Assembly (NCBI GenBank): GCA_027021615.1
Contig: JALUTY010000061.1
Coordinates: 1 to 36,611, forward strand
Origin: a bacterium
Lineage (GTDB): Bacteria > Desulfobacterota > Deferrisomatia > Deferrisomatales > Deferrisomataceae
Direction of reading: 5' to 3'
DNA length: 36,611 nt
The position numbers were made by a program, and so were the translations under genes. Below the pieces are notes generated by a model, which searched no databases, was not told the origin of the DNA, and saw nothing but the letters and a program-made list of their open reading frames with translations. How positions within the stretch are numbered: the first letter of the stretch is position 1; every line of letters begins with the position of its first letter. Positions 464 through 25,017 of this stretch are shown piece by piece.

Positions 464-1702
464 TCAGCGTGCCAGGTTGCAGCCGGTCTCGGCCACCGAG
501 GGGGTCACCTGGTCGGCCGGGAACACCCGCACCGGGTTCAGGATGGGGATGGGGTAGGCCGGATCCCGGGCGGTGCGGCCCCACGTGGCCGGGGTCAGGG
601 CCTGGTGGTCCTCCGGCCGCAGGGTGATCCGGCCCACCGGCAGCTCCACGCTCAGCCCCTCCAAAGCGCCCACCACGGCCTCCTTGTCGATGGACCCGGC
701 CTTCTCGGCCGCGGCCTTGTAGGCGTACACCGCGCCGTAAGCGCCGTGGGCGTTGTACGACGGGTACTGGCCGTACCGCTTGCGGTAGGCCTCGACGAAG
801 GCCCGGTTCCGCGCCGAGTCGTTGGCCAGGAACCAGTACCGGGTGCCCACCCACACCCCCTCGGGCATCCGATCCTTCAGGGCATAGAGCACCTCGGTGG
901 CGCCCCCCAAGGACATGAGGACGTCGAACCGGCCGTCGAAGAACCCCAGGTCCCGGGCCTGTCGGACGAAGTCGATCAGGTTCCCGCCCCACAGGGAGAT
1001 GAACACCCCCTCGGGCTTGGCCTTCATGATCTTGGTGATGTACGAGCTGAAGTCCGTGGTCTTGATGGGGGCGAACGCCACCTGGTCGTCGGGCAGGAAG
1101 GTCACGTCGGGCCGCAGCTCCTTGAGGTACTTCCGGAAGTACTCCCAGGACTGATACCCGAAGGCGTAGTCCGGCCCCACGGTGGCCCACACCTTGGCCT
1201 TGCTCTTCGCCGCCACCAGGGCCCCTGCCTTGCAGTTCTGGTTGATGTTCACCGACACCCGAAACGTGTATCGGTTGCACACGCTCCCGGTGACATCGGG
1301 TGTGGCGGCGTGGGTGATGATCAGGGGGGTGCGCAGCTCCTTCATGGCAGGCACCACCGACTTGGCCACCCCGCTCGAGTCGAGCCCGATCACGCAGTCC
1401 ACCCCCTTCTGGTACACCAGCTTGCGGATCGCCCGGATCGCCACGTCGGGCTTACCGGTGGAGTCCTCGAAGTACCCCTCGACCTTGCGTCCCAGGATGC
1501 CTCCCGCCCCGTTGATCTCGTCGATCGCCAGCTGGGCTCCCTGTTTGGCAAACTCGCCGTAGGTGGCGAACGGCCCCGACATGATGTAGACGAACCCCAG
1601 CTTGACCGGCTTCTCGGCCCGGGCCGCAGGCGCGAGCCACGGCAGGGCCAGTCCCACGGTGATCCAGACGACGACGCGGCGCAACGATCGGTGCGTGCTC
1701 AT
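464..1702 (-). CDS. Branched-chain amino acid-type ABC transporter substrate-binding protein (LivK/Peripla_BP_6 family)
   Basis: A 412-residue periplasmic binding protein. A cationic, hydrophobic N-terminus (about residues 1-30, ending PAARA) looks like a Sec signal peptide. The mature part opens with KLGFVYIMSGPFATYGEF and then GAQLAIDEINGAGGILGRKV, the hallmark start of the LivK-like type I binding fold. I chose the ATG at 1702 because AAAGGAGGTGGCC precedes it; an in-frame start 18 bases upstream lacks this site. No LivHMGF permease or ATPase genes are adjacent, so it is an orphan binding component here. In anaerobic degraders this family takes up branched-chain amino acids, but also aromatic and fatty acids. 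Its position downstream of a LiuR-type regulator and acyl-CoA dehydrogenase fits delivery of a carboxylic substrate, which is inference. The C-terminal half (GVWVGTRYWF onward) is normal for the family. Confidence 0.9.
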   Translation of the reverse strand: MSTHRSLRRVVVWITVGLALPWLAPAARAEKPVKLGFVYIMSGPFATYGEFAKQGAQLAIDEINGAGGILGRKVEGYFEDSTGKPDVAIRAIRKLVYQKGVDCVIGLDSSGVAKSVVPAMKELRTPLIITHAATPDVTGSVCNRYTFRVSVNINQNCKAGALVAAKSKAKVWATVGPDYAFGYQSWEYFRKYLKELRPDVTFLPDDQVAFAPIKTTDFSSYITKIMKAKPEGVFISLWGGNLIDFVRQARDLGFFDGRFDVLMSLGGATEVLYALKDRMPEGVWVGTRYWFLANDSARNRAFVEAYRKRYGQYPSYNAHGAYGAVYAYKAAAEKAGSIDKEAVVGALEGLSVELPVGRITLRPEDHQALTPATWGRTARDPAYPIPILNPVRVFPADQVTPSVAETGCNLAR

Positions 1703-1802
1703 GGCCACCTCCTTTCCCAAGGGCGATGGGGCCGGTCCACCCGGCCCCCGGAATCAGCCGACCGATGGAGTATAGCTTCCAAACGCCGGTTGCCAAGGGG
1801 AC

Positions 1803-2489
1803 CTAACAGGACTCCCCCCCTTTTCTTCCACCGACCCGGTATTGAGGCGCCTCGCCCCAGCACAGGTAGGCCCATCCTCCGTAGAGCTCCTCCATACGGA
1901 CGTTTTCGAGGCATGCTGCCATGGCCTCCCAGGGCCGACGCTCGGCCGCCTCTACCGTGACCCCGAACCCGCGGGTCAGCCACACCCCGAGGCGGAACGT
2001 CCATTCCGGCCAGCCGGAGGCGCGCTTGAGGTCTAACAAGACCAGCCTGCGTCCCGGCTCCAAGGCCTCGGCCGCGTTCCGGATCACCTGCGCGTATTCC
2101 GGGATGAGGGTGATCGCAAACGTGGACAGCACCCCGTGGAGGGGGGACGGAAACCGGTACTGCGTGGCGTCACACCGAACCAGATCCACGTTCCTCCACC
2201 CGCACCGCCGCACCTTCCCCCGGGCCTGGTCCAGCATCCGGTCGGTCAGGTCGACCCCCACGACCCAACCTTCCGTCCCCACGGCCCGACGCAGCAGGGC
2301 GATGTTCAGGCCCGTACCGCACCCGATGTCCACCACGGTGTCCCCCCGCTCCAGGGCCAGGGCCTCGACGGCTCGACGTCGGTACGTGGGGAGCCGGAAC
2401 CCGGCCAACACGTACAGGTTGGAGGTCAGGTCGTAGAGCGCGGCCCGTTTCCGATAGACCTGCCTCACGTCCTCCCTAGAGAGCCCCAT
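1803..2489 (-). CDS. Class I SAM-dependent methyltransferase (UbiE/Methyltransf_11-like)
   Basis: A 228-residue protein whose residues 51-61 (TVVDIGCGTGL) are the glycine-rich SAM-binding motif I, followed by an acidic motif II region (VVGVDLTDRMLDQA) and the motif around LVRCDATQYRF. The N-terminus VYRKRAALYDLTSNLYVLAGFR resembles quinone/phospholipid methyltransferases of the UbiE type. The ATG at 2489 has GGAGGCGATCCG upstream. It starts 14 bases after the stop of the acyl-CoA dehydrogenase gene, so the two are co-transcribed. The methyl acceptor cannot be read from the sequence; lipids, quinones or small metabolites are all possible. Confidence 0.85.
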   Translation of the reverse strand: MGLSREDVRQVYRKRAALYDLTSNLYVLAGFRLPTYRRRAVEALALERGDTVVDIGCGTGLNIALLRRAVGTEGWVVGVDLTDRMLDQARGKVRRCGWRNVDLVRCDATQYRFPSPLHGVLSTFAITLIPEYAQVIRNAAEALEPGRRLVLLDLKRASGWPEWTFRLGVWLTRGFGVTVEAAERRPWEAMAACLENVRMEELYGGWAYLCWGEAPQYRVGGRKGGESC

Positions 2490-3758: not shown

Positions 3759-4026
3759 TTACGCGTTGTGCTCCTGCCGGAGCTCGTACTTCATGACCCT
3801 GCCGCTCGGGGTGTGGGGAAGCTCCTCCACGAACCAAAATCAGGGATGCTTTGGCCCATGATCATGATGGCGGCGCGGCCACTCCGGGACACGCCCCACG
3901 CCAGGGGCCGCGCGGCCCCGGCCCAACAATCTGAGACCCAGGAGGTGCACCCGCCCCCTGGGCGCGGAGTGCCATCTTACGGGTGATCTGTCGGCCGTTG
4001 CGGTCGATGAGCTCAACAAGGTTCAT
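3759..4026 (-). pseudogene. Remnant of an AMP-forming acyl-CoA ligase with the core deleted
   Basis: The ATG at 4026 begins MNLVELIDRNGRQITRKMALR, a typical ligase N-terminus. At the other end the frame closing with TAA at 3759 reads FVEELPHTPSGRVMKYELR, the classic ligase C-terminus carrying the PTGK-like lysine loop. About 190 bp of unrelated-looking sequence with stops joins them, so roughly 450-500 codons, including the ATP/AMP motifs, are missing. The ATG has AAGGAG upstream and overlaps the end of the merR gene by 14 bases, and the TAA lies in the ribosome site of the acyl-CoA dehydrogenase gene. The ancestral order was therefore regulator-ligase-dehydrogenase-methyltransferase, tightly packed. 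Confidence 0.8.
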
Positions 4027-4438
4027 GGGATGCTCCTTCTTTCGAGAGGCGGTCGAGGGTCTCTTCCGGCGTCTCCATCGCGGCCCGGATGTCCTGCTCC
4101 AGCTCTGCCAGCTCCTTCTTCCGGCGTGCGATCTCCTCTAACTTCATTTTTCCGTACACCAGGCTTCGGCGGATCTGCTCGACCTCGGTCAGGTCCGTCT
4201 CGGGCATCCCGATCATCTCGGCGATCTCGTCCAGGGAGAACCCCAGCCGTTTACCCCGAAGGATCAGCCTGAGGCGGCGCCGATCCCCACGGGTGTACAC
4301 CCTCTGGTTGCCCGCGCTGCGGCGGGGCGTCAGCAGGCCCCTCTCCTCGTAGTACCGGATGGCACGGGGGCTGATGTCGAACTCCGCGGCCAGATCGGAG
4401 GTGGGATAGGTCCCCTCCCCAGATCGTCCTCCAGGCAC
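4013..4438 (-). CDS. MerR-family transcriptional regulator, LiuR-like
   Basis: A 141-residue DNA-binding regulator from the chosen start. The winged helix (LAAEFDISPRAIRYYEERGLLTP then GNQRVYTRGDRRRLRLIL) is followed by RGKRLGFSLDEIAEMIGM and a coiled-coil dimerisation helix rich in Glu/Lys (KMKLEEIARRKKELAELEQDI). That pattern is close to LiuR, which controls branched-chain amino acid and acyl-CoA catabolism in proteobacteria (established for LiuR, inferred here). No metal-binding cysteines are near the C-terminus; the single Cys is the last residue. The start is uncertain: GTG at 4438 gives the usual family length, but I see no good ribosome site. A half-palindrome TTGACG-CTC-CGTCGC at 4441-4456 may be an operator. 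Confidence 0.85.
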   Translation of the reverse strand: MPGGRSGEGTYPTSDLAAEFDISPRAIRYYEERGLLTPRRSAGNQRVYTRGDRRRLRLILRGKRLGFSLDEIAEMIGMPETDLTEVEQIRRSLVYGKMKLEEIARRKKELAELEQDIRAAMETPEETLDRLSKEGASHEPC

Positions 4439-4601
4439 GGCGCGACGGAGCGTCAACCTTGTCAAACAGGAGAAAACTCCAAAGCAGTACAGATGCCCGG
4501 TACCCGAGCTTGGCCGTAGCACGGCTCCTTCGTCCGGCGTCCTTGCACACTTCGATCCACCGTGTAGGCTACCGATCGGCAGCGGCTTCGGGGGCTCCTC
4601 C

Positions 4602-5112: not shown

Positions 5113-6582
5113 TCAGGACCGGGTCTGCGGCCGACCGGCGCAGTATGGATCGCGGGCCTCGAAGGTGTCGAGCCCGAACCCGCTCGTGCTGGCCAGGCAT
5201 CCCCCGCACACCGGTCGCACCGGGCAACCCCGGCAGGCGCTCGGGCCCGCCCGGTACCGGGCGGCCCGAGGGGAGTCGTAGATCTCGGCCAGGCTCTGGA
5301 CCCGCAGGGTCCCGATGGGAGAGGGGAACTTCCGGCAGGCGTGGACCTCGCCGTCCGGGAGGAGGCACACGAAGTTGAACGCGGCTCCGCAGCCGAACCC
5401 CGTGCACCCCCCGAACACCGGCTCGCCCCGCTGATACCGCAGCGGGTTGAGCAGGTTGTCCTTGAGCCCGAGCACAGGGTTCTCGCGGGCGGCAACCAGG
5501 TAGTCCTCGAGGAATGCCCGGTACCGCTCCCTCGGCACGACCGGCAGGTTGGCCCCCTCCCCCACGGGGGATAGGCGGTTGAAATGGAACCGGTCCGCCC
5601 GTGGCCGGAGCCGCTCGGCCAACGGCAGCACCTGGTCCACGTTGTCCCGGGTCAGGGTGAGCATGACCATCGAAAACACCCCGAGCCTGCGCAAGAGGCC
5701 GAGGAACTCCAGGGTGCGCTCGAAGTGCCCCGGGCCCCGAATCGCGTCGTTGTGCTCCTTGAGCCCTTCCAGGCTCACCTGGAACACCTCGGGGGGCCGA
5801 ATCGCGCACAGAGCCTCGATCGAATCGCGCGGGGAGGGGTTCCCCAGAACCGTGAGCCCGAAGCCCCGGTCCGCCGCCTCCCGGTAGAGGTCCAGGAACC
5901 GGGGGTGAAGCAAGGGGTTGCCGCCGGTGAAAGTCACGTGGCCCCGCACCCGCCGCTCCCGGCAGAACCAGTGGAGGTCGTCAAGAACCCGCAGGGCTCG
6001 ATCGTGGGGGAGGACATCCCGGGGGCTGCGGTCGTAGCAGTGCCGGCACCGCAGGTCACAGGCCTGGGTGAGGTGCCACTGCAGGGTGAAGACCGGTGCC
6101 ACCAGAAACTCCTTCCACCCGTGCGGCTCCACGCCGAGCTGTCGGGGATCGCGGCGCAGGAGCGGGGTCGGGGCCAACACCAGCCCCTCGTCCTGGGCCC
6201 GACCCAGGATCGCCTCGATCCGGCCCACCGGCACACCCCCCTCCCGGGCCGCTTCCTCGGGCCGGATCCCCTCCACCACGATCTTGAGGGCGAGCAGGTC
6301 CTCGGGGTCTGCGGCCTTGACTCGGGGCTCCTCCCCTGGGGGTCTCCACACCAAGACGAGCTGCTCTCCAGGGGTCGGCGACGGCGCCGAGGACGCGCCC
6401 GGGGCCAGCAGCTCGGGGAGGCCCCGCCACCCCACCCGCACGACCGAGAGAGTGGGGTTGGCCTCGGCCGCCCCAGAAGGGAGTTCCGGATCGGGCGCGG
6501 GCGCCGCCTGGGACAGAGTCCGCTCCAAACGGGCCAGGTCTGCGGCGTAAGGGGGCCTATCGGAATCCGTGGGCTTCGGCAT
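5113..6582 (-). CDS. sbtM: Radical SAM/SPASM peptide maturase, SbtM (selenobiotic) type
   Basis: A 489-residue radical SAM enzyme predicted to modify the selenocysteine peptide encoded just upstream. Residues 1-160 form an N-terminal domain with a helix-turn-helix-like stretch (LLALKIVVEGIRPEEAAREGGVPVGRIEAIL) that may bind the peptide leader. The radical SAM core starts at C175-x3-C179-x2-C182 (CDLRCRHCYD), followed by FTGGNPLLHP. The last 100 residues are a SPASM-type region with many Cys (GCTGFGCGAAFNFVC, ACRKFPSPIG, ACRGCPVRPVCGGC, final DPYC) that would hold extra Fe-S clusters. The ATG at 6582 has AAGGATAGGGACGG before it. From memory, public family models name this kind SbtM, partner of SbtA thio(seleno)oxazole-type precursors. 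The chemistry is not visible here, but the pairing with a Sec-rich peptide supports the call. Confidence 0.85.
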   Translation of the reverse strand: MPKPTDSDRPPYAADLARLERTLSQAAPAPDPELPSGAAEANPTLSVVRVGWRGLPELLAPGASSAPSPTPGEQLVLVWRPPGEEPRVKAADPEDLLALKIVVEGIRPEEAAREGGVPVGRIEAILGRAQDEGLVLAPTPLLRRDPRQLGVEPHGWKEFLVAPVFTLQWHLTQACDLRCRHCYDRSPRDVLPHDRALRVLDDLHWFCRERRVRGHVTFTGGNPLLHPRFLDLYREAADRGFGLTVLGNPSPRDSIEALCAIRPPEVFQVSLEGLKEHNDAIRGPGHFERTLEFLGLLRRLGVFSMVMLTLTRDNVDQVLPLAERLRPRADRFHFNRLSPVGEGANLPVVPRERYRAFLEDYLVAARENPVLGLKDNLLNPLRYQRGEPVFGGCTGFGCGAAFNFVCLLPDGEVHACRKFPSPIGTLRVQSLAEIYDSPRAARYRAGPSACRGCPVRPVCGGCLASTSGFGLDTFEARDPYCAGRPQTRS

Positions 6583-6620
6583 CCGTCCCTATCCTTTCCT
6601 TTCTTCCCTCACACCGCCCG

Positions 6621-6669
6621 AGAAACCGAGGCCGTTTCCCCGTCGGGCGGAACAGGGGAAACGGCCTCG
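6621..6669 (-). terminator. Terminator/attenuator between the sbtA and sbtM genes
   Basis: A perfect 15-bp inverted repeat, CGAGGCCGTTTCCCC against GGGGAAACGGCCTCG (6627-6641 and 6655-6669), has a 13-base loop and is followed on the minus strand by GGTTTCTC. It lies between the precursor stop and the maturase start. It probably ends most transcripts after the precursor and lets a fraction read through, giving many precursors per enzyme, a common arrangement in RiPP operons. Confidence 0.7.
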
Positions 6670-6718
6670 CGATCCTTTGAACGAGAAACTACCAAGAGCG
6701 TTCAGCCCCCGGCCGGGC

Positions 6719-6733
6719 AGCGCAGACCGCGCT
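6719..6733 (-). promoter_or_regulatory. SECIS-like hairpin for Sec71, overlapping the TAG stop
   Basis: AGCGC pairs with GCGCT around the loop GGTCT, with GG 25-26 nt after the third TGA. GGUCU is the same loop sequence as in E. coli fdhF. An outer pairing, CGGGC with GCCCG, can extend the stem. The TAG stop codon overlaps its 5' side, so the element continues past the coding end. Confidence 0.7.
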
Positions 6734-6965
6734 ACTGGTTCTTGGAGCCCGTTCAGGACCCCTGGCCGCCCGTCTTCTGTGCATCCTTGGTGCCGCCGGC
6801 ACCATCTTTGGCGCCCGTTCAGCCGGTGCTACCTGCACCGGTCTTCTGGCCGGATCAGCTCCCGTGGGCCCGACCCGCACAGCCCGTCAGGCCGAGGGTC
6901 GTCCCCGCCAGCAGCCCCGCCACGCTGAACCCGGCGAGGACCTTCTTCAGCAGGGTGCGGTCCAT
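6732..6965 (-). CDS. sbtA: Tri-selenocysteine RiPP precursor peptide, SbtA type (three recoded TGA codons)
   Basis: A 77-residue peptide if TGA is read as selenocysteine (U). The ATG at 6965 has a near-perfect ribosome site, AAGGAGGTGATGAC. Residues 1-29 (MDRTLLKKVLAGFSVAGLL onward) end in LTGC29, so the leader looks like a lipoprotein signal peptide. The rest is Gly/Ser/Thr/Lys-rich and contains in-frame TGA at codon 37 (6855-6857), codon 49 (6819-6821) and codon 71 (6753-6755). Their contexts are USGQK, UTGAK and UTGSK, i.e. a repeated U-[ST]-G-x-K. The frame closes at TAG (6732-6734). Each TGA is followed by a SECIS-like hairpin. The SbtM-type maturase gene lies 149 bases downstream. Ordinary gene callers would stop at codon 37 or miss it. 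Selenocysteine reading needs selA/B/C/D elsewhere in the genome, which I cannot see. Confidence 0.88.
6788..6804 (-). promoter_or_regulatory. SECIS-like hairpin for Sec49
   Basis: TGGTGCC pairs with GGCACCA around GGC (or one pair fewer around CGGCG), placing the loop GG again at 22-23 nt after the second TGA. The loop is tighter than the other two and lacks the GGT seen there, so it is the weakest of the three. Confidence 0.6.
6823..6841 (-). promoter_or_regulatory. SECIS-like hairpin for Sec37
   Basis: A 7-bp stem, CCGGTGC / GCACCGG, encloses the loop AGGTA. The loop GG is 22-23 nt after the first TGA, within the distance used by bacterial SECIS elements. The GGTGC-AGGT core resembles the apical part of the E. 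coli fdhF SECIS. The hairpin ends one base before the second TGA. Confidence 0.7.
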
Positions 6966-7038
6966 GTCATCACCTCCTTCTCGTGCCCGGCCGACGCCCG
7001 GACCGCCCCACCGGACCGACCGAGTCGGGATTCCCCAC

Positions 7039-7102
7039 GGAGCGCCGGCGCTGGATGAGGGCGCCCCAAAGCATCGAGGTTCCCGATGCGCGCCGGCGCT
7101 CC
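7039..7102 (-). other. Large nested inverted repeat in the sbtA leader region
   Basis: GGAGCGCCGGCGC (7039-7051) is exactly reversed as GCGCCGGCGCTCC (7090-7102). Inside it, GCATCG/CGATGC (7071-7076, 7084-7089) forms a second hairpin followed on the minus strand by TTTGGGG. It lies 74-137 bases before the sbtA start and 114 or more after the P-type ATPase stop. It could be the ATPase terminator or a structured 5' leader of sbtA. Confidence 0.6.
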
Positions 7103-7119
7103 CATGGGGTGGGTCGATC

Positions 7120-7147
7120 AGCGTACCCGGAGCCAGCGGATCGTCAA
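7120..7147 (-). promoter_or_regulatory. Possible sigma-70 promoter for the selenopeptide operon
   Basis: On the minus strand TTGACG (7142-7147) and TACGCT (7120-7125) are 16 bases apart. A start near 7113 would put the nested inverted repeat inside a leader of about 148 bases. The -10 match is weak. Confidence 0.35.
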
Positions 7148-7215
7148 GTGATGGCCGGGGGCATGGCAAGAGGGACGGTCCGCTCCCCAACCTTGGGAGC
7201 AAGGGGTACGGCGCC

Positions 7216-9681
7216 CTAGCGCCGCCCCCCAAAGGCGTGCAGGGGGCGGGCGACCCGGGAGAGGAAGTGGCGATGGCGCCGCACCTCGTGCCTCATGTGG
7301 CGGTAGACCTCCACCTTGACCAGATCGGTGACCACGGCCGATACGATGGAGTAGCCCCAAACCAGGGCGACCTCGGGCCAGGTGATGGGGGTGATCAAGC
7401 CGAAGCCGTACGCCGCCAGCAGGGTTGCAGCCAGCTTGGTGGCAACCGCCGACCAGATCACAATCGGGGCCGGCCAGGGTCTCTCCCAGAAATGCCCTTT
7501 CGTTCGGCCCACGAACAGCACGAGATGGCCGGCAACGGCCATCTTCAGGAACACGTAGGTCTGAATCTGGGCCACATCCAGCCTCAGCCAGTCCATGGCG
7601 ATCAGGAGCATGCCGAAGCTGCCCACCACGCCCACGAGACCCATGGCCGTAGCCACGGTGATCACCTGATGCATCTGCCACCGCACCGGCCGTTGCTCCG
7701 CCCGAGTGCGATCGTAGGCGATGGTCATGATCGGTACGTCGTTGAGAAAGGCGAGCAGGATGATCATGATGGCTGTGATCGGGTAGAAGTCAAACGCCAT
7801 CATGGCCCCCACCACGAAGAACATGATTCGGATGGTCTCGCTGATCCGGTACACGGCGTAGGCGTTCATCCGCCCGAAGATCCGCCTAGCCTCCTCGATG
7901 GCGCTGATGATCACCGAGAGACCCGGCTCCGTGAGCACCAGGTCGGCGGCGGCGCGGGCCGCGTCGGTGGCCCCGCTCACGGCCACGCCCACATCCGCCT
8001 GCTTCAAGGCAGGGGCGTCGTTCACCCCGTCTCCGGTCATGCCGGTGATGTGGCCCCGGCCTTGGAGCAGCTTGACGATGGCGAACTTGTGCTCGGGAAA
8101 GACCTCGGCGAAGCCGTCGGCTCGCTCCACCGCCTTGGCGTCGGCCGCTCCGATGTTCCCCCCAGGGTCGAGGGGGAGCCGGGAGGCCGGTAGGATGTTG
8201 TCCCCCAGCCCCAGCTTCCTGGCGATCTGGATCGCGATGGCCAGGTTGTCACCAGTGATCATCTTCACGTGCACCCCGTAAGCCTCTGCCCGGGCGATGG
8301 TCTCGGACGAGTCCTTCTGGGGAGGGTCGAACAGGGACAAAATGCCGAGGAAGACCCAGTGCTCCTCCCCCGCCTCCTTCCGCGCCACCCCCAGGGCCCG
8401 ATATCCTTGCGAGGCAAAGGCGTCCACAGCCTCCTGGATCTGCCGGCGCTCCTCCTCGCAGAGGTCTGACAACTCCATGATCACCTGGGGTGCCCCTTTG
8501 GCCACTTGGAACACCTTGCCTTCGGCATCCTCCACCGTCGACTCGGTGCGCTTCCGAACCGGGTCGAAGGGCACAAAGGTGCGGAGCCGGAAGCTCCGGA
8601 GCGCCGCCGGCTCCTTCAACCCCTCCAGCACCGCCTGGTCGATGGCGTCCCGGTCCTCCGGCCGGGACGCCAGGGCCGCAGCCACGAGCACCTCCTGGGG
8701 GCTCGCGGCACGGAAGACCCTGACCTCGCCCAGCGTCAGACGGTTCTGGGTCAGGGTTCCCGTCTTGTCCGAGCACAGCACGTCCATGCTCGCCATCTCT
8801 TCGATGGACTCCAGCCGGGTGACGATGGCCTTCTTCCGGGAGAGCGCGGCAGCCCCCACGGCCATGGTCATGGACAGGACCGCGGGCATGGCGACCGGGA
8901 TGGACGCCACGGTCAGGATCAAGGCGAACTGGATCAGGTCCAGCCACGGGGTGCCCCGGTGGAGCTGCTGGAGCAGAAGCACGGCCACCAGGGCGAGGCT
9001 CACGTAGATGAGGTAGTCGCCGATGGTCAGCACCGCCCTCTGGAAGTGGGAGACGGTCCGGGCCTGCTCCACCAGCCGGGCGGTCCTCCCGAACCGGGTC
9101 TCCTTGCCCGTGGCCACCACCTGGGCCACAACCTCCCCCTGCTTGGCCACGGTGCCCGAGTAGGCGGTGTCCCCCGCCCTGACGGTAACCGGCAGAGACT
9201 CGCCGGTGAGGGCCGACTGGTCCACGCTGAGGTAGTCCCCTTCGACGATCCTCACGTCAGCCGGGATCACGTCCCCGAGCCGGATGCGGATGATGTCGCC
9301 CGGCACCAGGCCGGCTGCCTCGATCTCCTGCCACCTGTCGTCGCGCAGCACCCTCGCCCTGTGGGCCAGCTGCCTTTTGAGGGCCTCCACCGCGTTGCCA
9401 GCGGTGTACTCCTGCCAGAACCCCACCGCCGCGTTGAAGATTAGGAGGCCCACGATGATCCAGAAGTCCGCCCAGTGGTGCACGATGGCCGAGAGCACCG
9501 CGGCCACCTCGATCATCCACGCGATGGGGCCCCAGAAGTACCCCAGCAGCCGCAGCAGGGTGGAAACACGCTCCTCCTCCAAGGCGTTCGGGCCGTACTT
9601 CTGAAGCCTCAGTGCCGCCTCTCGGGAGGTGAGCCCCCTGAGCGCTGCGGAGTCTTTCCGTGCCTCGCCACCCTCTCCCAT
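7216..9681 (-). CDS. Plasma-membrane proton-type P-type ATPase (P3A family)
   Basis: An 821-residue integral membrane cation pump. The actuator motif TGES is at 159-162, IPVAMPAVLSMTMAVGA at about 261-277 is the M4 signature typical of H+-ATPases, and phosphorylated D305 sits in DKTGTLT. Further landmarks are KGAPQVI (nucleotide site), MITGDN, and the hinge TGDGVNDAPALKQAD. Paired hydrophobic segments lie near residues 43-90, 222-285 and in the last 230 residues, consistent with about ten helices. The length is close to other bacterial and archaeal P3A pumps. The ATG at 9681 is preceded by GAGGAGGGTGTTTCC. It would export protons at the cost of ATP, although the transported ion is inferred from family. 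Its stop lies about 250 bases before the selenopeptide gene on the same strand, with a promoter-like and hairpin region between. Confidence 0.93.
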   Translation of the reverse strand: MGEGGEARKDSAALRGLTSREAALRLQKYGPNALEEERVSTLLRLLGYFWGPIAWMIEVAAVLSAIVHHWADFWIIVGLLIFNAAVGFWQEYTAGNAVEALKRQLAHRARVLRDDRWQEIEAAGLVPGDIIRIRLGDVIPADVRIVEGDYLSVDQSALTGESLPVTVRAGDTAYSGTVAKQGEVVAQVVATGKETRFGRTARLVEQARTVSHFQRAVLTIGDYLIYVSLALVAVLLLQQLHRGTPWLDLIQFALILTVASIPVAMPAVLSMTMAVGAAALSRKKAIVTRLESIEEMASMDVLCSDKTGTLTQNRLTLGEVRVFRAASPQEVLVAAALASRPEDRDAIDQAVLEGLKEPAALRSFRLRTFVPFDPVRKRTESTVEDAEGKVFQVAKGAPQVIMELSDLCEEERRQIQEAVDAFASQGYRALGVARKEAGEEHWVFLGILSLFDPPQKDSSETIARAEAYGVHVKMITGDNLAIAIQIARKLGLGDNILPASRLPLDPGGNIGAADAKAVERADGFAEVFPEHKFAIVKLLQGRGHITGMTGDGVNDAPALKQADVGVAVSGATDAARAAADLVLTEPGLSVIISAIEEARRIFGRMNAYAVYRISETIRIMFFVVGAMMAFDFYPITAIMIILLAFLNDVPIMTIAYDRTRAEQRPVRWQMHQVITVATAMGLVGVVGSFGMLLIAMDWLRLDVAQIQTYVFLKMAVAGHLVLFVGRTKGHFWERPWPAPIVIWSAVATKLAATLLAAYGFGLITPITWPEVALVWGYSIVSAVVTDLVKVEVYRHMRHEVRRHRHFLSRVARPLHAFGGRR

Positions 9682-9696
9682 GGAAACACCCTCCTC

Positions 9697-10320
9697 GGCC
9701 CGCGGGCCTCGTCCCCCGAGTTCTCAACTCCGTATCGCACCCCCTTTTGCCAAGGCCCCCCGAGCGGGCAGGAGCCTACCGGCGGGTCTCCCTCAGGGGA
9801 GACCCGCGCCCCTCGGCACGCTCCCGCACCCCCATCTTCACCAGCGCCCCGGTCCCCCTCGGCCCCAGATCTTCGGACCGGCCGAGAACTTCGAACCGGG
9901 GCAGGGCCACCCTCCCCCCCGACTGCCCTGCCCACCCGCACCGCAACCCATCGCCTGGCACCGTTGGCACCGCCCCACCCGGGGATGCAGGTGCCCCGTT
10001 CCGACGGCGTGAACCTTACCACTGCTCTGTAGCAGAGGGGGGCGAGGAAGCAAGGGGCGCACGGCCGGAAGTAAATCCCATGCCCCTTGGCCGCAACGCC
10101 CCGGACCAACGAGAGTTACCCTCCCTGCTTCCTGGCCCCGCAGGGGCCTGACAATGCTTCCCATCCACAACGTTTTTTTGCCTTGACAGGAGAGCTACGG
10201 TCTGACAGCTTGTTGACCGGGCGCCCAGTTACTTCGAGCGGGCGATGTTTTTGCTGGGTCCCAAAGATCAAACGCAGGTGTGCCGCGCCCCATACGGACC
10301 GCCCCCAAGCCCCAGCAGGG
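9697..10320. other. Intergenic region of about 640 bases between divergent genes
   Basis: This separates the ATPase (minus) from the acyl-CoA ligase (plus), so it must hold both promoters, but I see no convincing pair of boxes. A fragment of the dispersed repeat lies at 10056-10089. Candidate short frames here lack ribosome sites and similarity that I recognise. Confidence 0.5.
10056..10089 (+). repeat. Dispersed intergenic repeat, fragment B
   Basis: GCGCACGGCCGGAAG followed by a variant of the CCCATGCCCC terminus matches the right end of copy A. Only this half is recognisable. Confidence 0.45.
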
Positions 10321-10335
10321 AAAGGAGGACAGACC

Positions 10336-12009
10336 ATGACGGTTGCGACCGTGAAGGGGTTCCCGTCGACCTCGGGGGACGACTACCCGCTCAACCTGCT
10401 CGCGTTCCTCCAGCATGCGGCCCGCACGTACCCAGAGGTGGAGGTGGTGTCCCGCCGGCTGGACGGGAGCCTGGTCCGCTCCACCTACGGGGAGGTCTAC
10501 CGCCGGGTGTGCCGGCTGGCCAACGCCCTTCGGAAGCTGGGGGTGCGGCCCGGGGACCGGATCGGGGCCCTGGACTGGAACACCCACCGGTACTTGGAGT
10601 CGTACTTTGCCGTGGCCGGCCTGGGGGCCGTGCTCCTGCAGGTCAACCCGCGGATCTCGGCGGCCGAGCGCCGGTACGTGCTCGAGCACAGCGGTGCGAG
10701 GTTCCTGCTGGTGAGCGAGTCCCTGCTTCCCGTGATCGAGCCGTTGGCCGGGGACCTCGCCGGGGTGGAGGGGTACGTGGTCCTGGGCGATGGGGACGCG
10801 GGCGGGGTCCGGACCCGTCTCTCCCCGGTGTACGGCTACGAGGATCTGCTGGCGGACGCGCCGGAGGAGATCGGGTGGCCCGCGGTGGACGAGACCTCGG
10901 CCGCCACCGCCTGCTACACCTCGGGCACCACCGGCAGGCCCAAGGGGGTGTACCACTCCCACCGGGCCCTGTATCTCCATACCCTCACGATGGCCCTGAT
11001 GGTGGGGTTGCGGGCGCGGGACGTGGTAATGCAGACGGTGCCCATGTTCCACGCCCAGGGGTGGGGCCTCTTTTTCTGCGCGCCCCTGGCCGGGGCCACG
11101 CTGGTGCTCCCGGGGCGCTACACGCTGGAGGACCCCTCGCCCCTGGTGGGCCTGCTGGTGGCCGAGAAGGTGACGGTCACCTGCGGGGCGCCGGCGATCT
11201 TCCTGCCCATGCTGGAGCACCTGCGCCGGCTCGACCCCAAGCCCGACCTCTCGGGGCTCCGGATGCTCTCAGGGGCCACCGAGCCGCCCCTGTCGATGAT
11301 GCGCGGGTTCTGGGAGCTCGGGGGAGCCGAGGTGATCCACGCGTACGGCGCCACCGAGACCGCGCCCCTGGCCACGATGAACCTCCTCAAGCCGTCCCTC
11401 GAGGGCCTGGGGGTCGAGGAGCGCTGGGACCTTCGTCGCAAGCAGGGGCTTCCGGTGTGCGGGATCGACCTGAAGGTGGTGACCCCGGACGGTCGGGAGG
11501 CCCCGGCCGACGGGAAGACCGTGGGCGAGGTGTGGATCCGGGGGCCGTGGGTCACCACCTCGTACCACAACGACGAGCGCACGGCCGAGGCGTTCTCCGA
11601 GGGATACTGGCGCAGCGGCGACGCCGGCACCATCGACCCCAACGGCTACCTGAAGATCACGGACCGGTTCAAGGACCTGATCAAGAGCGGGGGCGAGTGG
11701 ATCTCGTCCATCGACCTGGAGAACGCCATCATGGCCCATCCCCTGGTGAAGGAAGCGGCCGTCATCGGCGTGCCCCATCCCAAGTGGGAGGAGAGGCCCC
11801 TGGCCCTGGTGGTGCTCCAGGAAGGGGCGAAGGGTCAGGTCTCCGAGCAGGAGATCCGGGAGTCCCTGCTGCCCCGGTTCGCCCGGTGGCAGCTTCCGGA
11901 CGAGGTGCTGTTCGTCGACGAGATCCCCAAAACGAGCGTGGGCAAGTTCGCCAAGCGGGTGCTCCGCGACATCTACCGCAACCGGTACGGCGGGGGGCCC
12001 GAGCGGTGA
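10336..12009 (+). CDS. AMP-forming acyl-CoA ligase (medium/long-chain fatty acid-CoA ligase-like)
   Basis: A 557-residue adenylate-forming enzyme that would activate a carboxylic acid with ATP and CoA. It has the phosphate loop [12 protein letters not shown], the substrate/AMP motif YGATETAP, the hinge region [15 protein letters not shown] and the C-terminal catalytic lysine context [11 protein letters not shown]. The order and spacing resemble the AlkK/DmdB type (medium-chain or methylmercaptopropionate ligases). ATG 10336 follows AAAGGAGGACAGACC; longer in-frame starts upstream have no ribosome site. It is the first gene of a plus-strand catabolic run, where a ligase would supply the CoA ester for the enzymes that follow. 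The true acid cannot be read from sequence. Confidence 0.92.
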
Positions 12010-12132
12010 TCGGTGACGGGTGACGGGTAACGGAGGCTCAGGTGACCCCTCACCTGCCACCTGTGACCCGTCACCTGTCACGGAAGTCCCCACCCGTCAC
12101 GGGTCACCGATCACCCGTCACCGACTTCCACC
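12006..12132. repeat. GTCACCCG-type short tandem repeat spacer
   Basis: The spacer is built from variants of GTGACGGGT and its complement (ACCCGTCAC, GATCACCCGTCAC), giving several possible hairpins. Shorter pieces of the same unit occur in the spacers at 15140-15175 and 16980-17010 of the same cluster. Confidence 0.7.
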
Positions 12133-12145
12133 GGAGGTTCCAACC

Positions 12146-13597
12146 ATGGCAGGCATCGTCGCGTTCGGGGCCCACGTTCCCCGCTACCGCCTGGACCGGG
12201 GCCGGATCCTGAAGGCCGTGGGCTGGGCCCAGCCCGCCACGGCGGCCCGAGCCCGGGGACAGAAGGCCGTGGCCAACCACGACGAGGACGCCATCACCGC
12301 GGCCGTGGCCGCGGCCCGAAACGCCGGGGCCTTCGGGCCCGGGGCCGGGGTGGGTTCCCTCTACCTCGCATCCACGAGCGCCCCGTACGCCGAGCGCCAG
12401 AACAGCGCCATCGCAGCCGAGGCCCTGGGCCTGGGCGACGCGATGCGCTCGGCCGACGTCACGGGCTCAGCCCGGGCCGGCACCACGGCCCTGCTGGCGG
12501 CCCTGGCCGACGTGACCTCGGGCCGGGCGGGGCGGGCCCTGGTGTGCGCGGGCGAGGTGCGCCGGGCCAGGCCAGGCAGCGTGGAGGAGCACCTCCTCGG
12601 CGACGGCGGCGCGGCCGTGTGCGTGGGGGCGGAGGGGGCGCTGGCCGAGTTGGTGGGCTCCCACTCGGTGTCCTGCGACTTCCCCGACCGGGTTCGGGGC
12701 TCGGACCGGCCCCTGGGGCGCTCCTGGGAGGAGCGATGGGTCCGGGACGAGGGCCTCCTGGGCCTTCTGCCGGGCGCCGTGTCGGCCTACCTGGAGCGGT
12801 GCGGCCTGGAGCCGGGGGTGTTCTCGAAGGTGGTGCTCCCGGTCGCCTCCCTCCGGGACGCGGCGCGGGTGGCCCGGGCCCTTGGGCTTTCCGTCGAGGT
12901 GCTCGTGGACCCCCTGGCCCACCGGGTCGGGCACACCGGGGCGGCCCATCCCCTGCTCCTGCTGTGCCGGGCCCTGGAGGAGGCCGAACCGGGCGAGGAG
13001 ATCCTGCTGGTGGGGTTCGGAAGCGGGGTCGACGTGCTCCACTTCCGGGCCACCGACGCGGTCCGGTCGTTCCGGCCGAGGCGCACGGTCGGCGAACTCC
13101 TGAAGATGGGCAAGGACCTGGGCTCCTACGAGAAGTACGCCGCGTTCCGGGATCTGCTGGCCGTGGAGACTGGCATGCGCGGGGAGTTCGAGCCCGAGAC
13201 CCCCATGTCGGTGGTGTGGCGCCACCGCCGGACCATCCTGGGGCTCGTGGGCAGCCGCTGCCGGCGGTGCGGGACGCCCCAGTTCCCGCCCCAGCGGGTG
13301 TGCGCCAACGGAGCGTGCCGCGCCGTGGACGAGATGGAGCCCCACCCCTTCGCGGACAGGCCTTGCCGGGTGTTCAGCTACACGGCCGATCTTCTGGCCT
13401 GGAGCCCGAACCCGCCGCTGATCTACGGCGTGGTGGACTTCGAAGGCGGCGGGCGGATGATGGTGGAGTTCACCGACTGCGACCTCGAGGACCTGGCCGT
13501 GGGCCTGCCGGTGGACCTCGTGTTCCGCCGGAAGTACCACGACCGACAGCGGGGCATTCACACGTACTTCTGGAAGTGCGTGCCGGCGGCCTCCTGA
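12146..13597 (+). CDS. HMG-CoA synthase-like protein fused to a DUF35 zinc-ribbon/OB domain, catalytic Cys absent
   Basis: A 483-residue two-part protein. Residues 1 to about 345 have the thiolase-superfamily HMG-CoA synthase fold (start IVAFGAHVPRYRLDRGRI, LLGDGGAAVCVGAEG, HTGAAHPLLLL, VGFGSGVDVLHF). Where archaeal HMG-CoA synthases have the nucleophile in ACKAGTAA, this one reads SARAGTTA, so A109 replaces the Cys. The C-terminus is a DUF35 module: a rubredoxin-like zinc ribbon, C-x2-C-x10-C-x4-C (SRCRRCG, VCANGAC), followed by an OB-fold (CRVFSYTADLL, PPLIYGVVDFEGGGRMM). DUF35 proteins bind acyl-CoA and support thiolases or aldolases, for example BbsA with BbsB. The thiolase gene follows directly, so this protein is probably its non-catalytic partner or a scaffold. 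ATG 12146 has CGGAGGTTCCAACC. Confidence 0.85.
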   Translation: MAGIVAFGAHVPRYRLDRGRILKAVGWAQPATAARARGQKAVANHDEDAITAAVAAARNAGAFGPGAGVGSLYLASTSAPYAERQNSAIAAEALGLGDAMRSADVTGSARAGTTALLAALADVTSGRAGRALVCAGEVRRARPGSVEEHLLGDGGAAVCVGAEGALAELVGSHSVSCDFPDRVRGSDRPLGRSWEERWVRDEGLLGLLPGAVSAYLERCGLEPGVFSKVVLPVASLRDAARVARALGLSVEVLVDPLAHRVGHTGAAHPLLLLCRALEEAEPGEEILLVGFGSGVDVLHFRATDAVRSFRPRRTVGELLKMGKDLGSYEKYAAFRDLLAVETGMRGEFEPETPMSVVWRHRRTILGLVGSRCRRCGTPQFPPQRVCANGACRAVDEMEPHPFADRPCRVFSYTADLLAWSPNPPLIYGVVDFEGGGRMMVEFTDCDLEDLAVGLPVDLVFRRKYHDRQRGIHTYFWKCVPAAS

Positions 13598-13810
13598 GGA
13601 AGGCCCTGGGGGCGTCTGCAGGCGCAGGTTCCTACCGGCGGGCAGAGCAGGCCGGCTGCCGCGGGCACGGTCGCCCGCAGCCCTCCCGCCAGCGCCGGAG
13701 GGTTTTCTTCGACCGACGACCAGCGACCGAGGACCGAAGTTCTTGGGAGCATCGTCAGAGACGCCTGCGGGGCCGTCTAGAGACTAGAAACTAGAGACTA
13801 GACCATGCTT

Positions 13811-13934
13811 CCCGGACCGTGAGGTGGAGGCGAAGAGGCATGGTAATGCCTAGAACATGTGAAAATCCGGGAGGTTTTCAAGCCTCCCAGCGTCCCAACC
13901 TCCTAGCGTCCTAGCGGAAGTTACATGGAAGGAG
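13811..13934 (+). repeat. Duplicated upstream block, copy 1 (before the thiolase gene)
   Basis: About 120 bases are nearly identical to 18121-18238. They include GGTGGAGGCGAAGAGGCATGG, the hairpin GGCAT-GGTA-ATGCC, GAGGTTTTCAA, a CCTAGCGTCCTAGCGG microrepeat and GGAAGTTACATG, ending in the ribosome site of the next gene. The two copies differ mainly in the number of CCTAGCGT-type units. The rest of the gap (13598-13810) has a CTAGAGACTAGAAACTAG simple repeat and nothing else I recognise. Confidence 0.85.
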
Positions 13935-13940
13935 ACGGCC

Positions 13941-15137
13941 ATGGCGAGCGGGATCCGGGACAAGGTGGCAATCGTGGGGATGGGGTGCACGCGGTTCGGC
14001 GAACGGTGGGACGCGGACGCCGCGGACCTGATCGTGGAGGCGTTCCAGGAGGCCGTGGAGGACGCCGGCATCGGGCCCGAGGAGATCCAGGCCGCCTGGC
14101 TCGGGACCTGCTTCGAGGAGGTCCACCTGGGCAAGAGCGGCATCCCCTTGGCCCAGGCCCTAAAGCTGCCCGGCATCCCCGTGACCCGGGTCGAGAACTT
14201 CTGCGCCACCGGCACCGAGGCGTTCCGGGGCGCGTGCTACGCCGTGGCCTCGGGCGCCTGCGACATCGCCCTGGCCCTGGGGGTGGAAAAGCTCAAGGAC
14301 ACCGGGTACGGGGGGCTCCCGGGGTTCGACACCGCCATGGGCACCCTGAACCGGTTCATCCTGCCCGCGTTCACGGCCCCGGGGGGGTTCGCCCTGATGG
14401 CCACCCGCTACTTTGCCGAGCACGGCATCTCCCCGGACGAGGGCAAGGCGGCCCTTGCGCGCATCTCGGTCAAGAGCCACCGGGCCGGGGCCATGAACCC
14501 CAAGGCCCACCTGCGCACCGAGATCACCCCGGAGCAGGTGCTCCAGGCGCCGATCGTGGCCTGGCCCCTGGGCCTGTTCGACTGCTGCGGCGTGAGCGAC
14601 GGGGCGGCCGCCGCCATCGTGACAACCCCTGAGATCGCCCGGTCGCTCCGGCCGGACCCCGTGCGGGTGAAAGCGCTCCAGATCGCGGCCACGTCGGGCG
14701 AGGAGCTCTACACCACCAACTGGGACGGCACCCACCTGCCCACCACGGCCCGGGCGGCGGCCCGCGCCTGCGAGGAGGCCGGGGTGCGCAGCCCCCGGGA
14801 CGAGATCGGAGTCCTCGAGGTCCACGACTGCTTCTCGATCACCGAGCTCGTCACCTACGAAGACCTGGGCATCTCTCCCCGGGGCCGGGCCATCCGGGAC
14901 GTGAACGACGGGCTGTTCGAGCTGGAGGGGGCGATCCCGTGCCAGCCCGACGGGGGCCTGAAGTGCTTCGGTCACCCCATCGGCGCCTCCGGGATCCGGA
15001 TGATCTACGAGGTGTACAAGCAGCTCCAGCACAGGGCCGGCCCCCGGCAGGTGAAGGACCCGAAGCTGGGGCTCACCCACAACCTGGGGGGCATCCCCCT
15101 GTTCAGTGTGTGCAGCATCGGGATCTTCGGGCTGTGA
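13941..15137 (+). CDS. Thiolase family protein (SCP-x/BbsB-like acyl-CoA acyltransferase)
   Basis: A 398-residue thiolase that would cleave a 3-oxoacyl-CoA with CoA. The nucleophile is C88 in ENFCATGTEAFRGAC, H295 lies in EVHDCFSITE, and H345 lies in CFGHPIGASG, where the family normally has this C-x-G-H-P motif. The sequence is of the sterol-carrier-protein/thiolase type without an SCP2 domain, the same group as BbsB, which works with a DUF35 partner. The HMG-CoA-synthase/DUF35 fusion gene lies immediately upstream. ATG 13941 follows AAGGAGACGGCC, and the duplicated block at 13811-13934 ends in that ribosome site. Confidence 0.9.
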   Translation: MASGIRDKVAIVGMGCTRFGERWDADAADLIVEAFQEAVEDAGIGPEEIQAAWLGTCFEEVHLGKSGIPLAQALKLPGIPVTRVENFCATGTEAFRGACYAVASGACDIALALGVEKLKDTGYGGLPGFDTAMGTLNRFILPAFTAPGGFALMATRYFAEHGISPDEGKAALARISVKSHRAGAMNPKAHLRTEITPEQVLQAPIVAWPLGLFDCCGVSDGAAAAIVTTPEIARSLRPDPVRVKALQIAATSGEELYTTNWDGTHLPTTARAAARACEEAGVRSPRDEIGVLEVHDCFSITELVTYEDLGISPRGRAIRDVNDGLFELEGAIPCQPDGGLKCFGHPIGASGIRMIYEVYKQLQHRAGPRQVKDPKLGLTHNLGGIPLFSVCSIGIFGL

Positions 15138-15263
15138 GCAAGTCACCCGTCACGGATCACCCGTCACGCGTCACCGCTTTTCGAGCCTCCCCGCCGTGCG
15201 ACCGACGAACCTCCTCCCGGGCGGCCCGGGGGCTCCCAACCCTTTTGGAGACAGGAGGTGGCC

Positions 15264-16976
15264 ATGATCCTGGCGTCCCAGAGGCAGATCCGCAGGTACA
15301 CCGAGCTGGGCTGTTGGGGGGAGCGCACCCTCCTGGACGACTTTCGGGAACACGTCCGCCGCACCCCCGAACGCACCGCCGTGGTGGACCCGCCGAACAA
15401 GGAGGATCTCATGGGGCTGGCCCCGGAGCGGGTCTCCTACAAGGCCCTCCACCGGGCGGTGGAAGGGGTGGCCACGGCCTTGCGGGCCGCGGGCCTGGAA
15501 AAGGACGACGTGGTCCTGGCCCAGATCCCCAACAGCTGGGAGCTGGCCATGCTCTACCTCGCGGTGGCCCGGGCCGGCGGGGTGCTCTCGCCCGTGCCCG
15601 TGCAGTGGCGCTCGCGGGAGCTCGCCTACGTGGCCCGGCTGACCCGGGCCAGGGCATTCGTGACGGTGGAGTCGCACCGGGGGTTCGATCACCTGGCCCA
15701 GGCCAGGGCCCTGGCCGAGCAAGTGCCCTCCCTCCGGCAGGTGCTCTCCGTGGCCGAGATCCGGCGCATGGCCCGGGAGACCCCGGATCCGGGGCTCGAC
15801 CGGATCCGGGTGGACGCCAACGACATCTTCACGATCTGCTGGACCTCGGGAACCGAGGCCCAACCCAAGGGCTGCCCCCTCAGCCACAACAACTGGAGGT
15901 GCCAGGCCTCCCTGGCCGCATCGGCCGGCCTGCGGCCGGGGGACGTCCTGCTCACCGCCGGGCCGCTGGTGAACATGGGGGCCCTGGGCACGGTGTACGC
16001 CCCCTGGCTGATCCTGGGGGGGACCATGGTTCTCCACCACCCGTTCGACCCGGCCCTGCTGCTTCGGCAGATGGTGGAGGAGAAGATCCACTACACGCTC
16101 CTGGTGCCGGCGGTGGTGAACCTGATCCTCAAGCACCCCGCGGCAGACTCCTTCGACCTCGGGGGGATCCGCAGCATCACGGTGGGCTCGGCCCCCCCGT
16201 CCCTGTGGGCCATGCGCGAGTTCAAGCGCCGATGGGACATCGACATCGGCAACATCTGGGGCCAGAACGAGGGAACCGGCCTCGTGTCCACCTCCGGAGA
16301 CGTCCCCGACATGGAGGTCCGGGTCGACCACTTTCCGCGCTACGGCGTCAAGGGCCGCACGTGGGCCTCGCCCGTCACCCGGTTCGTGGAGACCCGGGTG
16401 GTGGACGAGCAGGACCGGGAACTCGTCCAGGACGGGGCGGTGGGCGAGCTCCTGTACCGCGGCCCCAACGTGATGCCGGGTTACTTCAACCGGCCCGACC
16501 TGAACGAGCAGGCCTTCGACGAGGAGGGGTTCTTCCGCACCGGCGACCTGTTCCGGATCCGTGGGGAGCACTACCTGAGCTTCGTGGACCGGAAGAAGGA
16601 CATCATCATCCGGGGCGGGATGAACATCAGCGCCCAGGAGGTGGAGAACCTGATCCTCGCCCACCCCGACGTGCAGGACGCGGCCGTGGTGGGCATGCCC
16701 GACCAGGACCTGGGCGAGCGCTGCTGCGCCTACGTGGTGCCCCGGGCCGGCGCGCGGATCCGCCTGGAGGACCTGACCTCGTTCATGCGGGATCAGGGCG
16801 TGGCCGTGTACAAGCTGCCCGAGCGGCTCGAGCTCGTGGATCAGATCCCCCGGAACCCCGTGGGCAAGGTGCTGAAGGCAAGGCTCCGGGAGGACATCCG
16901 CGCGAAGCTGGCGCAGAGTGTGGAGGGGAACCGGGCAGATCCGAGAGAGGAAGACTCCGACACCAAGGAGACGTGA
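15264..16976 (+). CDS. AMP-forming acyl-CoA ligase, second copy type
   Basis: A 570-residue adenylate-forming ligase only distantly similar to the one at 10336. The phosphate loop is altered, TSGTEAQPKGCPLSHNN instead of the usual TSGTTGxPKG. The later motifs are intact: WGQNEGTG, GFFRTGDLF, DRKKDIIIRGGMNISAQEVE and NPVGKVLKARLR with the catalytic lysine. ATG 15264 is preceded by AGGAGGTGGCC; a GTG six bases upstream overlaps that site. It is flanked by CACCCGTCAC-type spacer repeats. Having two ligases in one cluster suggests either two substrates or two stages, such as re-activation of a shortened acid; this is inference. Confidence 0.9.
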   Translation: MILASQRQIRRYTELGCWGERTLLDDFREHVRRTPERTAVVDPPNKEDLMGLAPERVSYKALHRAVEGVATALRAAGLEKDDVVLAQIPNSWELAMLYLAVARAGGVLSPVPVQWRSRELAYVARLTRARAFVTVESHRGFDHLAQARALAEQVPSLRQVLSVAEIRRMARETPDPGLDRIRVDANDIFTICWTSGTEAQPKGCPLSHNNWRCQASLAASAGLRPGDVLLTAGPLVNMGALGTVYAPWLILGGTMVLHHPFDPALLLRQMVEEKIHYTLLVPAVVNLILKHPAADSFDLGGIRSITVGSAPPSLWAMREFKRRWDIDIGNIWGQNEGTGLVSTSGDVPDMEVRVDHFPRYGVKGRTWASPVTRFVETRVVDEQDRELVQDGAVGELLYRGPNVMPGYFNRPDLNEQAFDEEGFFRTGDLFRIRGEHYLSFVDRKKDIIIRGGMNISAQEVENLILAHPDVQDAAVVGMPDQDLGERCCAYVVPRAGARIRLEDLTSFMRDQGVAVYKLPERLELVDQIPRNPVGKVLKARLREDIRAKLAQSVEGNRADPREEDSDTKET

Positions 16977-24787: not shown

Positions 24788-24833
24788 CGGATCCTCTCCT
24801 TGTCGAGAAAAGGGGAAATTCGCCAAGAGCGGC

Positions 24834-25017
24834 CTAGCACGCATGATTCATGAGCGTTCGTCGCGAAACCGCCGAGTGTGCGTCAGATCGGGGCAAGCGC
24901 GGCAACCAGGGGCGCAGGCGTACGGGACGGTACGTCGAGCCCCGAGGCGCGAGCACGCCCCGAGATGGCGTGCAATCGGCGGTTGCAGCAGAAGGCTTCA
25001 TGAATAATGCGGGCTAG
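24834..25017 (+). mobile_element. MITE-like element, complete copy (184 bp)
   Basis: It is bounded by CTAGCACGCATGATTCATGA at the left and TCATGAATAATGCGGGCTAG at the right, which are inverted repeats with two or three mismatches over 20 bases. The interior has no credible gene. A truncated inverted copy occupies 1-126 of the window. The outermost CTAG at each end may be part of the repeat or of the target site. Confidence 0.85.

Follow-up and report, generated by a model that had tools for sequence, protein, structure and literature searches.

A 36,611-nucleotide stretch of contig JALUTY010000061.1 (positions 1 to 36,611) of a bacterium of the Deferrisomataceae (assembly GCA_027021615.1), which we analysed as a whole and call the window, carries an sbtA-sbtM gene pair for which we predict with high confidence that three UGA codons of sbtA, each followed by a selenocysteine insertion sequence (SECIS), are read as selenocysteine (Sec, U), and that the adjoining enzyme SbtM likely turns each Sec, in a four-electron oxidation, into a 5-selenooxazole. 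The precursor gene sbtA is a 234-nt, 77-codon frame on the minus strand, running from 6965 down to 6732, with UGA at codons 37 (6855-6857), 49 (6819-6821) and 71 (6753-6755) and a TAG at 6734-6732; its product reads MDRTLLKKVLAGFSVAGLLAGTTLGLTGCAGRAHGS-U-SGQKTGAGSTG-U-TGAKDGAGGTKDAQKTGGQGS-U-TGSKNQ-stop. A preliminary description of this DNA had reported such a frame, without its strand, behind a strong ribosome site, and had pointed to a threefold U-[ST]-G-x-K pattern. The observation of a triple-UGA gene is confirmed, since the site AAGGAGGTGAT can be read at 6969-6979 of the minus strand, directly 5' of the ATG, and the pattern recurs as USGQK, UTGAK and UTGSK.

Both genes belong to a known family. 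The leader of sbtA (codons 1-28, 6882-6965, minus strand), which has a putative role as signal peptide, scored 38.6 bits against the NCBIfam SbtA precursor model TIGR04081 (cut-off 30.5) and was the sole match in the genome at E 0.001, and the core sites GSUS, TGUT and GSUT fit the [SGT]-[GSA]-[UC]-[STG] sites of its relatives. As described earlier, sbtA lies directly upstream of sbtM, which occupies 5113-6582 of the same strand, 149 nt 3' of the sbtA stop, and encodes 489 residues. SbtM scored 663 bits against the equivalog profile TIGR04082 (cut-off 350), matched PF04055 and PF13186, the latter placing a SPASM domain, and carries the radical S-adenosylmethionine (SAM) motif CxxxCxxC at residues 175-182 (6037-6060, minus strand), whose three cysteines are invariant in 34 sequences. 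The earlier term 'hidden gene' is only partly right, because although the frame ends at codon 36 under translation table 11, NCBIfam already models the family. The pair thus belongs, on good evidence, to the known SbtA family, in which a precursor with three Sec is nothing unusual.

We also considered the opposite strand. Read on the plus strand, 6732-6965 is open in frame 1, yet holds no described feature, and this reading was rejected; the plus-strand open reading frames (ORFs) overlapping sbtA that were scanned (5584-8193, 6569-6928 and 6068-6550) gave no Pfam match. The first of these, 869 amino acids long, overlaps sbtM, sbtA and an ATPase gene in part and in antisense and, being without a Pfam match, probably arose by chance in GC-rich DNA.

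The UGA codons of sbtA are predicted to encode selenocysteine

The genome (G000; 4.25 Mb in 134 contigs) holds all of the genes selA, selB, selC and selD, so that the absence of Sec machinery, which was to have refuted the reading, was not found. A tRNA-Sec with anticodon UCA scored 72.6 bits, SelB 336.7 bits, SelA 582.9 bits and SelD 356.4 bits; the selD gene (L128, G000:C78:237566-238486) has itself one in-frame TGA, and SelD of this genome is therefore likely a selenoprotein as well.

Each UGA of sbtA is followed on the minus strand by a SECIS-type hairpin with a 7 bp stem. The first (6823-6841) has the loop AGGUA, lies 20 nt past UGA37 and folds at -12.5 kcal/mol. The second (6788-6804; 21 nt, -10.5 kcal/mol) has the loop GGC or, alternatively, a 6 bp stem with the loop CGGCG, and the third (6717-6735; 24 nt, -10.6 kcal/mol) has the loop GGUCU and holds the TAG in its 5' arm. 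A bacterial SECIS model given in a passage of PMC13188914 describes a 3-9 nt loop with an early G[G/U], a 4-16 bp stem, a spacing of 16-37 nt and an energy of at most -7.5 kcal/mol, a limit that we applied to the hairpin alone. In the window as in both congeneric genomes (G001 and G002), each of the three UGAs conforms to this model, at -10.5 to -12.5 kcal/mol, with loops beginning G[GU] and at 20-25 nt from the UGA. With all precursors of the family counted, 146 of the 213 in-frame UGAs pass the published limit versus 5.05 in codon-order shuffles, while among the controls 4/688 SbtM Cys codons and 71 of 2,310 sampled TGA triplets (some of which may be true sites) do so. A looser hairpin rule passes 186/213 in-frame UGAs against 5.85 in shuffles, 51/688 SbtM Cys codons and 10/116 Cys codons within the precursors. 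A search of the window with Rfam at gathering thresholds gave no match.

These hairpins and the machinery also bear on whether UGA might be read as some other amino acid, through genome-wide recoding or a suppressor. The frame would be just as open if UGA were a sense codon; the genome, however, has a dedicated UCA tRNA-Sec with SelA, SelB and SelD, and the SECIS-type hairpins that follow the UGAs seldom follow Cys codons, as the controls above show, making such recoding extremely improbable.

The SECIS of Escherichia coli fdhF consists of a small stem with GGU in its apical loop, and the sbtA elements share the small stem, the apical-loop GGU and about the same distance from the UGA. They differ from it in that sbtA has several elements per short gene, the last of which includes the stop codon. 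This last arrangement is common in the family, with 57 of the 186 hairpin-backed UGAs having their hairpin over (24) or past (33) the TAA/TAG stop. It is a tidy observation and no new mechanism, because Sec near a C-terminus has to depart from the usual placement and because passages of PMC13188914 already name Sec families UXPK-star and KCU-star, in which, by our own reading, 'star' marks the stop.

If UGA37 were instead the true stop, as translation table 11 would have it, sbtA would encode a 36-residue peptide and the remainder would be non-coding or decayed. The congeneric genomes speak to this directly. Both keep all three UGAs, and UGA37 is never swapped for another stop; the frame is intact past UGA37 in the three genomes, and the pairwise identities before it (codons 1-36, 94.4-98.1%) resemble those from it onward (codons 37-77, 94.3-95.9%). 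Changes are few in total, those at the amino-acid level affecting two or three codons per pair, all of them past UGA37, and the codon after the UGA varies, encoding S, A or T in the case of UGA37 and T or G in that of UGA49. More distant relatives likewise conserve the region past codon 37, so that a lack of coding conservation there, the second refutation foreseen by the preliminary description, did not materialise. Together with the hairpins, their covariation (see below) and the Sec machinery, this leaves termination at UGA37 very unlikely.

Several observations nevertheless weigh against Sec decoding. Single-sequence folding finds the hairpins unexceptional, and for hairpin 2 it prefers another hairpin. 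At locus L020 both inner UGAs are hairpin-less and not explained as a stop; of 23 UGAs that are hairpin-less under the looser rule, many look like the gene's real stop or lie beyond it, and some do not. Moreover, SelA is widespread, occurring in 88 of the 99 genomes of our set, G000 included, and the machinery is therefore necessary but weak evidence; SelA was not found in the congener G001, whose assembly is 81% complete.

Covariation indicates that the spacer between Sec sites is mostly a translated hairpin

To assess the hairpins across the family we aligned, gap-free, 71 distinct sites, selected by the presence of a hairpin at this position. The six-pair helix gave a covariation score of 0.552 against 0.209 in shuffled alignments, a value reached in none of 500 shuffles, while structures slid along the alignment scored at most 0.148, and RNAalifold recovered the same helix unprompted. 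Cells with double changes numbered 79 versus 18.6 in shuffles, none of the 500 reaching that number; double changes occur in 5 of the 6 helix pairs, which 126/500 shuffles also attain. The paired percentage over the 71 sites, 96.7, is biased upward because of the way the sites were chosen.

We therefore relied on a choice-free test as well, in which 120 sites were taken by their amino acids alone, as x-[AT]-[GV]-[GSR]-x after U. At 103 of the 120, the last codon of the motif is the exact reverse complement of the first, and 117/120 pair when G-U is allowed; among distinct motif DNAs, 45/59 are exact mirrors, whereas 10,000 shuffles averaged 12.4 and never exceeded 24. It is because of this complementarity that the first and last residues co-vary, as G...T, S...T, G...A, S...A, G...S, D...V and D...I. 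In Cys-type precursors (P0003-P0008, L050 and L087), S-C-[GS] is kept and the spacer is absent at equal distance, as judged by eye. The G-A-G-[SG]-T spacer between Sec sites is thus mostly the SECIS hairpin translated, whereas the residues right around U do look like a genuine peptide motif, since the Cys-type precursors keep them. The shared pattern of the preliminary description accordingly stands as a peptide motif for the residues next to U, and the longer repeat between the Sec sites belongs largely to the RNA.

Multiple Sec sites are common among SbtA precursors

A scan for SbtM found 201 places, of which the best 80 loci were kept for locus comparisons. A leader hidden Markov model (HMM) found sbtA at 66 of these 80 and no recognisable sbtA at the other 14 (L029, L034, L036, L037, L039, L046, L055, L056, L064, L067, L068, L075, L089 and L094), some of which are at contig edges and others of which have full flanks. 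In the set of 99 genomes, SbtM exceeded its cut-off in 10, counting G000 and including both congeners, and sbtA was present at 9 of the 10, L102 being the locus where it was not found. At L038, L045, L052, L070 and L071 sbtA lies downstream rather than upstream of sbtM.

The SECIS-backed UGAs per precursor (n=75) number 0 in 3 precursors, 1 in 6, 2 in 30, 3 in 29, 4 in 4, 5 in 1 and 6 in 2, where the highest counts may take in UGAs past the true stop and near-identical relatives are counted separately. Hence three Sec are common, 36/75 precursors having at least three SECIS-backed UGAs, and the earlier suggestion that three sites per precursor would make a rare class is not supported for a family that is, moreover, already in print. 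Multi-Sec SbtA precursors occur in many genomes, mostly metagenome-assembled genomes titled as deltaproteobacterial/desulfo- or Nitrospirae lineages. The window resembles the known SbtA/SbtM system in its leader profile, the adjoining SbtM, the UGA-encoded Sec and the SECIS past the UGA; it differs in having three Sec versus the 2 of one entry, 'Selenobacteriocin' TIGR04081, of the 2026 review PMC13188914, and is otherwise an ordinary member.

A few relatives deserve separate mention. The precursor at L104 (1150-1467, minus strand) is mixed: its inner sites have Cys, and its only UGA is terminal, with the hairpin 3' of the stop; none of its 6 Cys codons passes the hairpin rule, and it is possibly an intermediate between Cys- and Sec-type precursors. 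At L082 (5497-5763, plus strand) codon 29, which in close relatives encodes the lipobox Cys, is a UGA that no SECIS hairpin follows; this may reflect a sequencing error, decay or something odd. Next to the Cys-only precursor of L050, the sbtM stretch (733-2148, plus strand) is interrupted by a stop in the frame of the match.

SbtM is predicted to recognise the leader through an MNIO-partner-type domain

SbtA/SbtM is a thio(seleno)oxazole system of ribosomally synthesized and post-translationally modified peptides (RiPPs), reported by Lewis et al. (2021, Biochemistry 60:3347) and reviewed in PMC11002830. The N-terminal domain of SbtM (residues 37-140, 6163-6474, minus strand) has three strands followed by three helices, fitting known structures of RiPP recognition elements (RREs), and Foldseek returned NGO1945 (3dee) as its sole match below 0.001. 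We therefore predict an RRE resembling those of the partner proteins of multinuclear non-heme iron-dependent oxidative enzymes (MNIOs). A sequence search of the PDB with the domain profile gave nothing below E 0.4, and a search for NGO1945_C (PF22106) in 59 genomes including G000 gave no match, its controls likewise being without one. The chemistry published for another SbtM comprises a loss of four hydrogens and, on a Cys substrate, a thiooxazole seen by NMR (PMC11002830, section 14).

The leader of SbtA looks like an export signal

By pattern, the leader has two lysines (KK), a hydrophobic stretch and LTGC, an L-T-G-C lipobox-like motif at codons 26-29 (6879-6890, minus strand). A lipobox-like Cys, placed at residues 22-34 after G, S or A, occurs in 48/76 precursors; in 33 of these it is residue 29, and in 43/48 Gly precedes it. 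The remaining 28/76 have an AxA-type match, a loose pattern for which several cases (e.g. L082 and L038) are doubtful. On an SbtM tree of 65 rows, lipobox and AxA switch 11 times, with at least 5 of the switches forced by the starred branches. From its sequence, then, the leader resembles an export signal of the lipoprotein or signal-peptidase-I type. We found no published statement that SbtA leaders are signal peptides, in a coarse search that did not include the primary SbtA paper.

The same segment could serve as a RiPP leader for SbtM only, never being processed as a signal peptide, in which case the product would stay cytoplasmic. RREs do bind RiPP leaders, and SbtM has a predicted one; but the lysines ahead of a hydrophobic stretch, the lipobox-like Cys close to residue 29 in 48/76 precursors and the interchange of lipobox and AxA states on the SbtM tree speak for an export signal, and we regard the leader-only role as rather unlikely, if still deserving consideration.

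Export-type leaders have precedents in other RiPPs. Parts of PMC12452194 describe signal peptides as rare among RiPP precursors and usual in MNIO substrates, with about 16% of Buf2 precursors predicted to have lipoprotein signal peptides. The lipidated RiPP DybA, according to a portion of PMC12636315, has a lipoprotein signal peptide as its leader and was shown to be lipidated in E. coli; SbtA is predicted to have this kind of leader, but DybA undergoes MNIO chemistry giving a macrocycle, and lipidation of SbtA is a prediction. With the bufferins (BufA, its MNIO BufB and the partner BufC), as presented in parts of PMC12452194, the SbtA system shares the thiooxazole product, and it has precursors with putative signal peptides and a predicted RRE-type recognition domain as they do. 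It differs from them in that SbtM is a radical SAM/SPASM enzyme and not an MNIO, in that Sec replaces Cys and in that enzyme and RRE form one polypeptide. G000 gave no match to MNIO (PF05114) or DUF2063 (PF09836) at E 0.001, where the control Caulobacter matched both, and the pair is therefore not a bufferin. The export-type leader, the kinship of the predicted RRE and the shared 5-thiooxazole product suggest by analogy that the product may be an exported, bufferin-like selenium metallophore. We tentatively propose, at somewhat below even confidence, that sbtA-sbtM is a radical-SAM, selenium-based counterpart of the bufferins, with an MNIO-partner-type RRE, several Sec converted to selenooxazoles, a lipoprotein/Sec-pathway export signal, a membrane-anchored or periplasmic metallophore as product and a spacer dictated by SECIS.

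Genes surrounding the pair

Clustering of 2,560 ORFs of at least 100 amino acids from the 80 loci and the window placed sbtM in 81/81 loci; the clusters ranking second to fourth, present at 64, 19 and 11 loci, consist of ORFs antisense over sbtM. Among these ORFs no conserved exporter or protease partner appeared at the 81 loci, the best other clusters reaching 9/81, and there is therefore no sign of a dedicated exporter. This bears on whether the product is a secreted antimicrobial instead of an envelope metal ligand, as the name 'selenobacteriocin', applied to the family in the quoted entry of the 2026 review, implies. Once antisense ORFs are set aside, the loci share no conserved gene of that size for immunity, a protease or an exporter, and the leader reads as a general export signal whose lipobox-like Cys, in 48/76 precursors, would keep the product anchored; we consider an antimicrobial role improbable.

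Between sbtA and sbtM lies a 15-nt perfect inverted repeat (6627-6669, minus strand), possibly an element for transcript processing or attenuation. A conserved intergenic hairpin was considered and dismissed as not general, the longest perfect repeat having a median of 7 versus 6.1 in shuffles, with a repeat of at least 10 nt in 9 of the 60 loci compared, the window included. On the other side of sbtA, a 13-nt perfect inverted repeat (7039-7051 and 7090-7102, with a 38-nt spacer) separates it from a gene directly 5' on the same strand for a plasma-membrane proton-efflux P-type ATPase (7216-9681, minus strand; TIGR01647, 985.8 bits). Downstream of sbtM is a MerR-type regulator (4013-4522, minus strand; PF13411) that falls under the ZntR, MerR and CueR cut-offs. 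Elsewhere in the window, 10087-16976 of the plus strand encodes in a row an acyl-CoA ligase, an HMG-CoA-synthase-like protein with a ChsH2-type OB domain, a thiolase and a second acyl-CoA ligase; an acyl-CoA dehydrogenase follows at 19118-20254, and a cytochrome c552, likely a nitrite reductase, at 23285-24844 (minus strand; PF02335, 564.5 bits).

Discussion

We envisage that SelA, SelD and tRNA-Sec(UCA), whose genes are present, would make Sec-tRNA, which SelB would deliver at each UGA of sbtA. By extension of the published SbtM chemistry, the N-terminal RRE of SbtM would then bind the leader, and the radical SAM/SPASM part would modify the U in the [SGT]-[GSA]-U-[STG] sites. The leader may next serve as export signal, LTGC giving a lipid-anchored periplasmic peptide and the AxA relatives a free one. 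In the last and weakest step the product would, most likely, bind soft metal ions in the cell envelope, by analogy with the bufferins.

To our knowledge, few natural products contain genetically encoded selenium. What draws attention to this locus is the SECIS-dictated spacer, the stop-spanning last SECIS, the export-type leader and the kinship of the RRE. The comparison gives an RNA reason for the repeated spacer and shows the last SECIS overlapping or following the stop, so a spacer motif in a selenopeptide should be checked for a SECIS before it is read as a peptide signal. As a function for the family, whose alternative name suggests an antibiotic, we tentatively propose that of an exported metal ligand.
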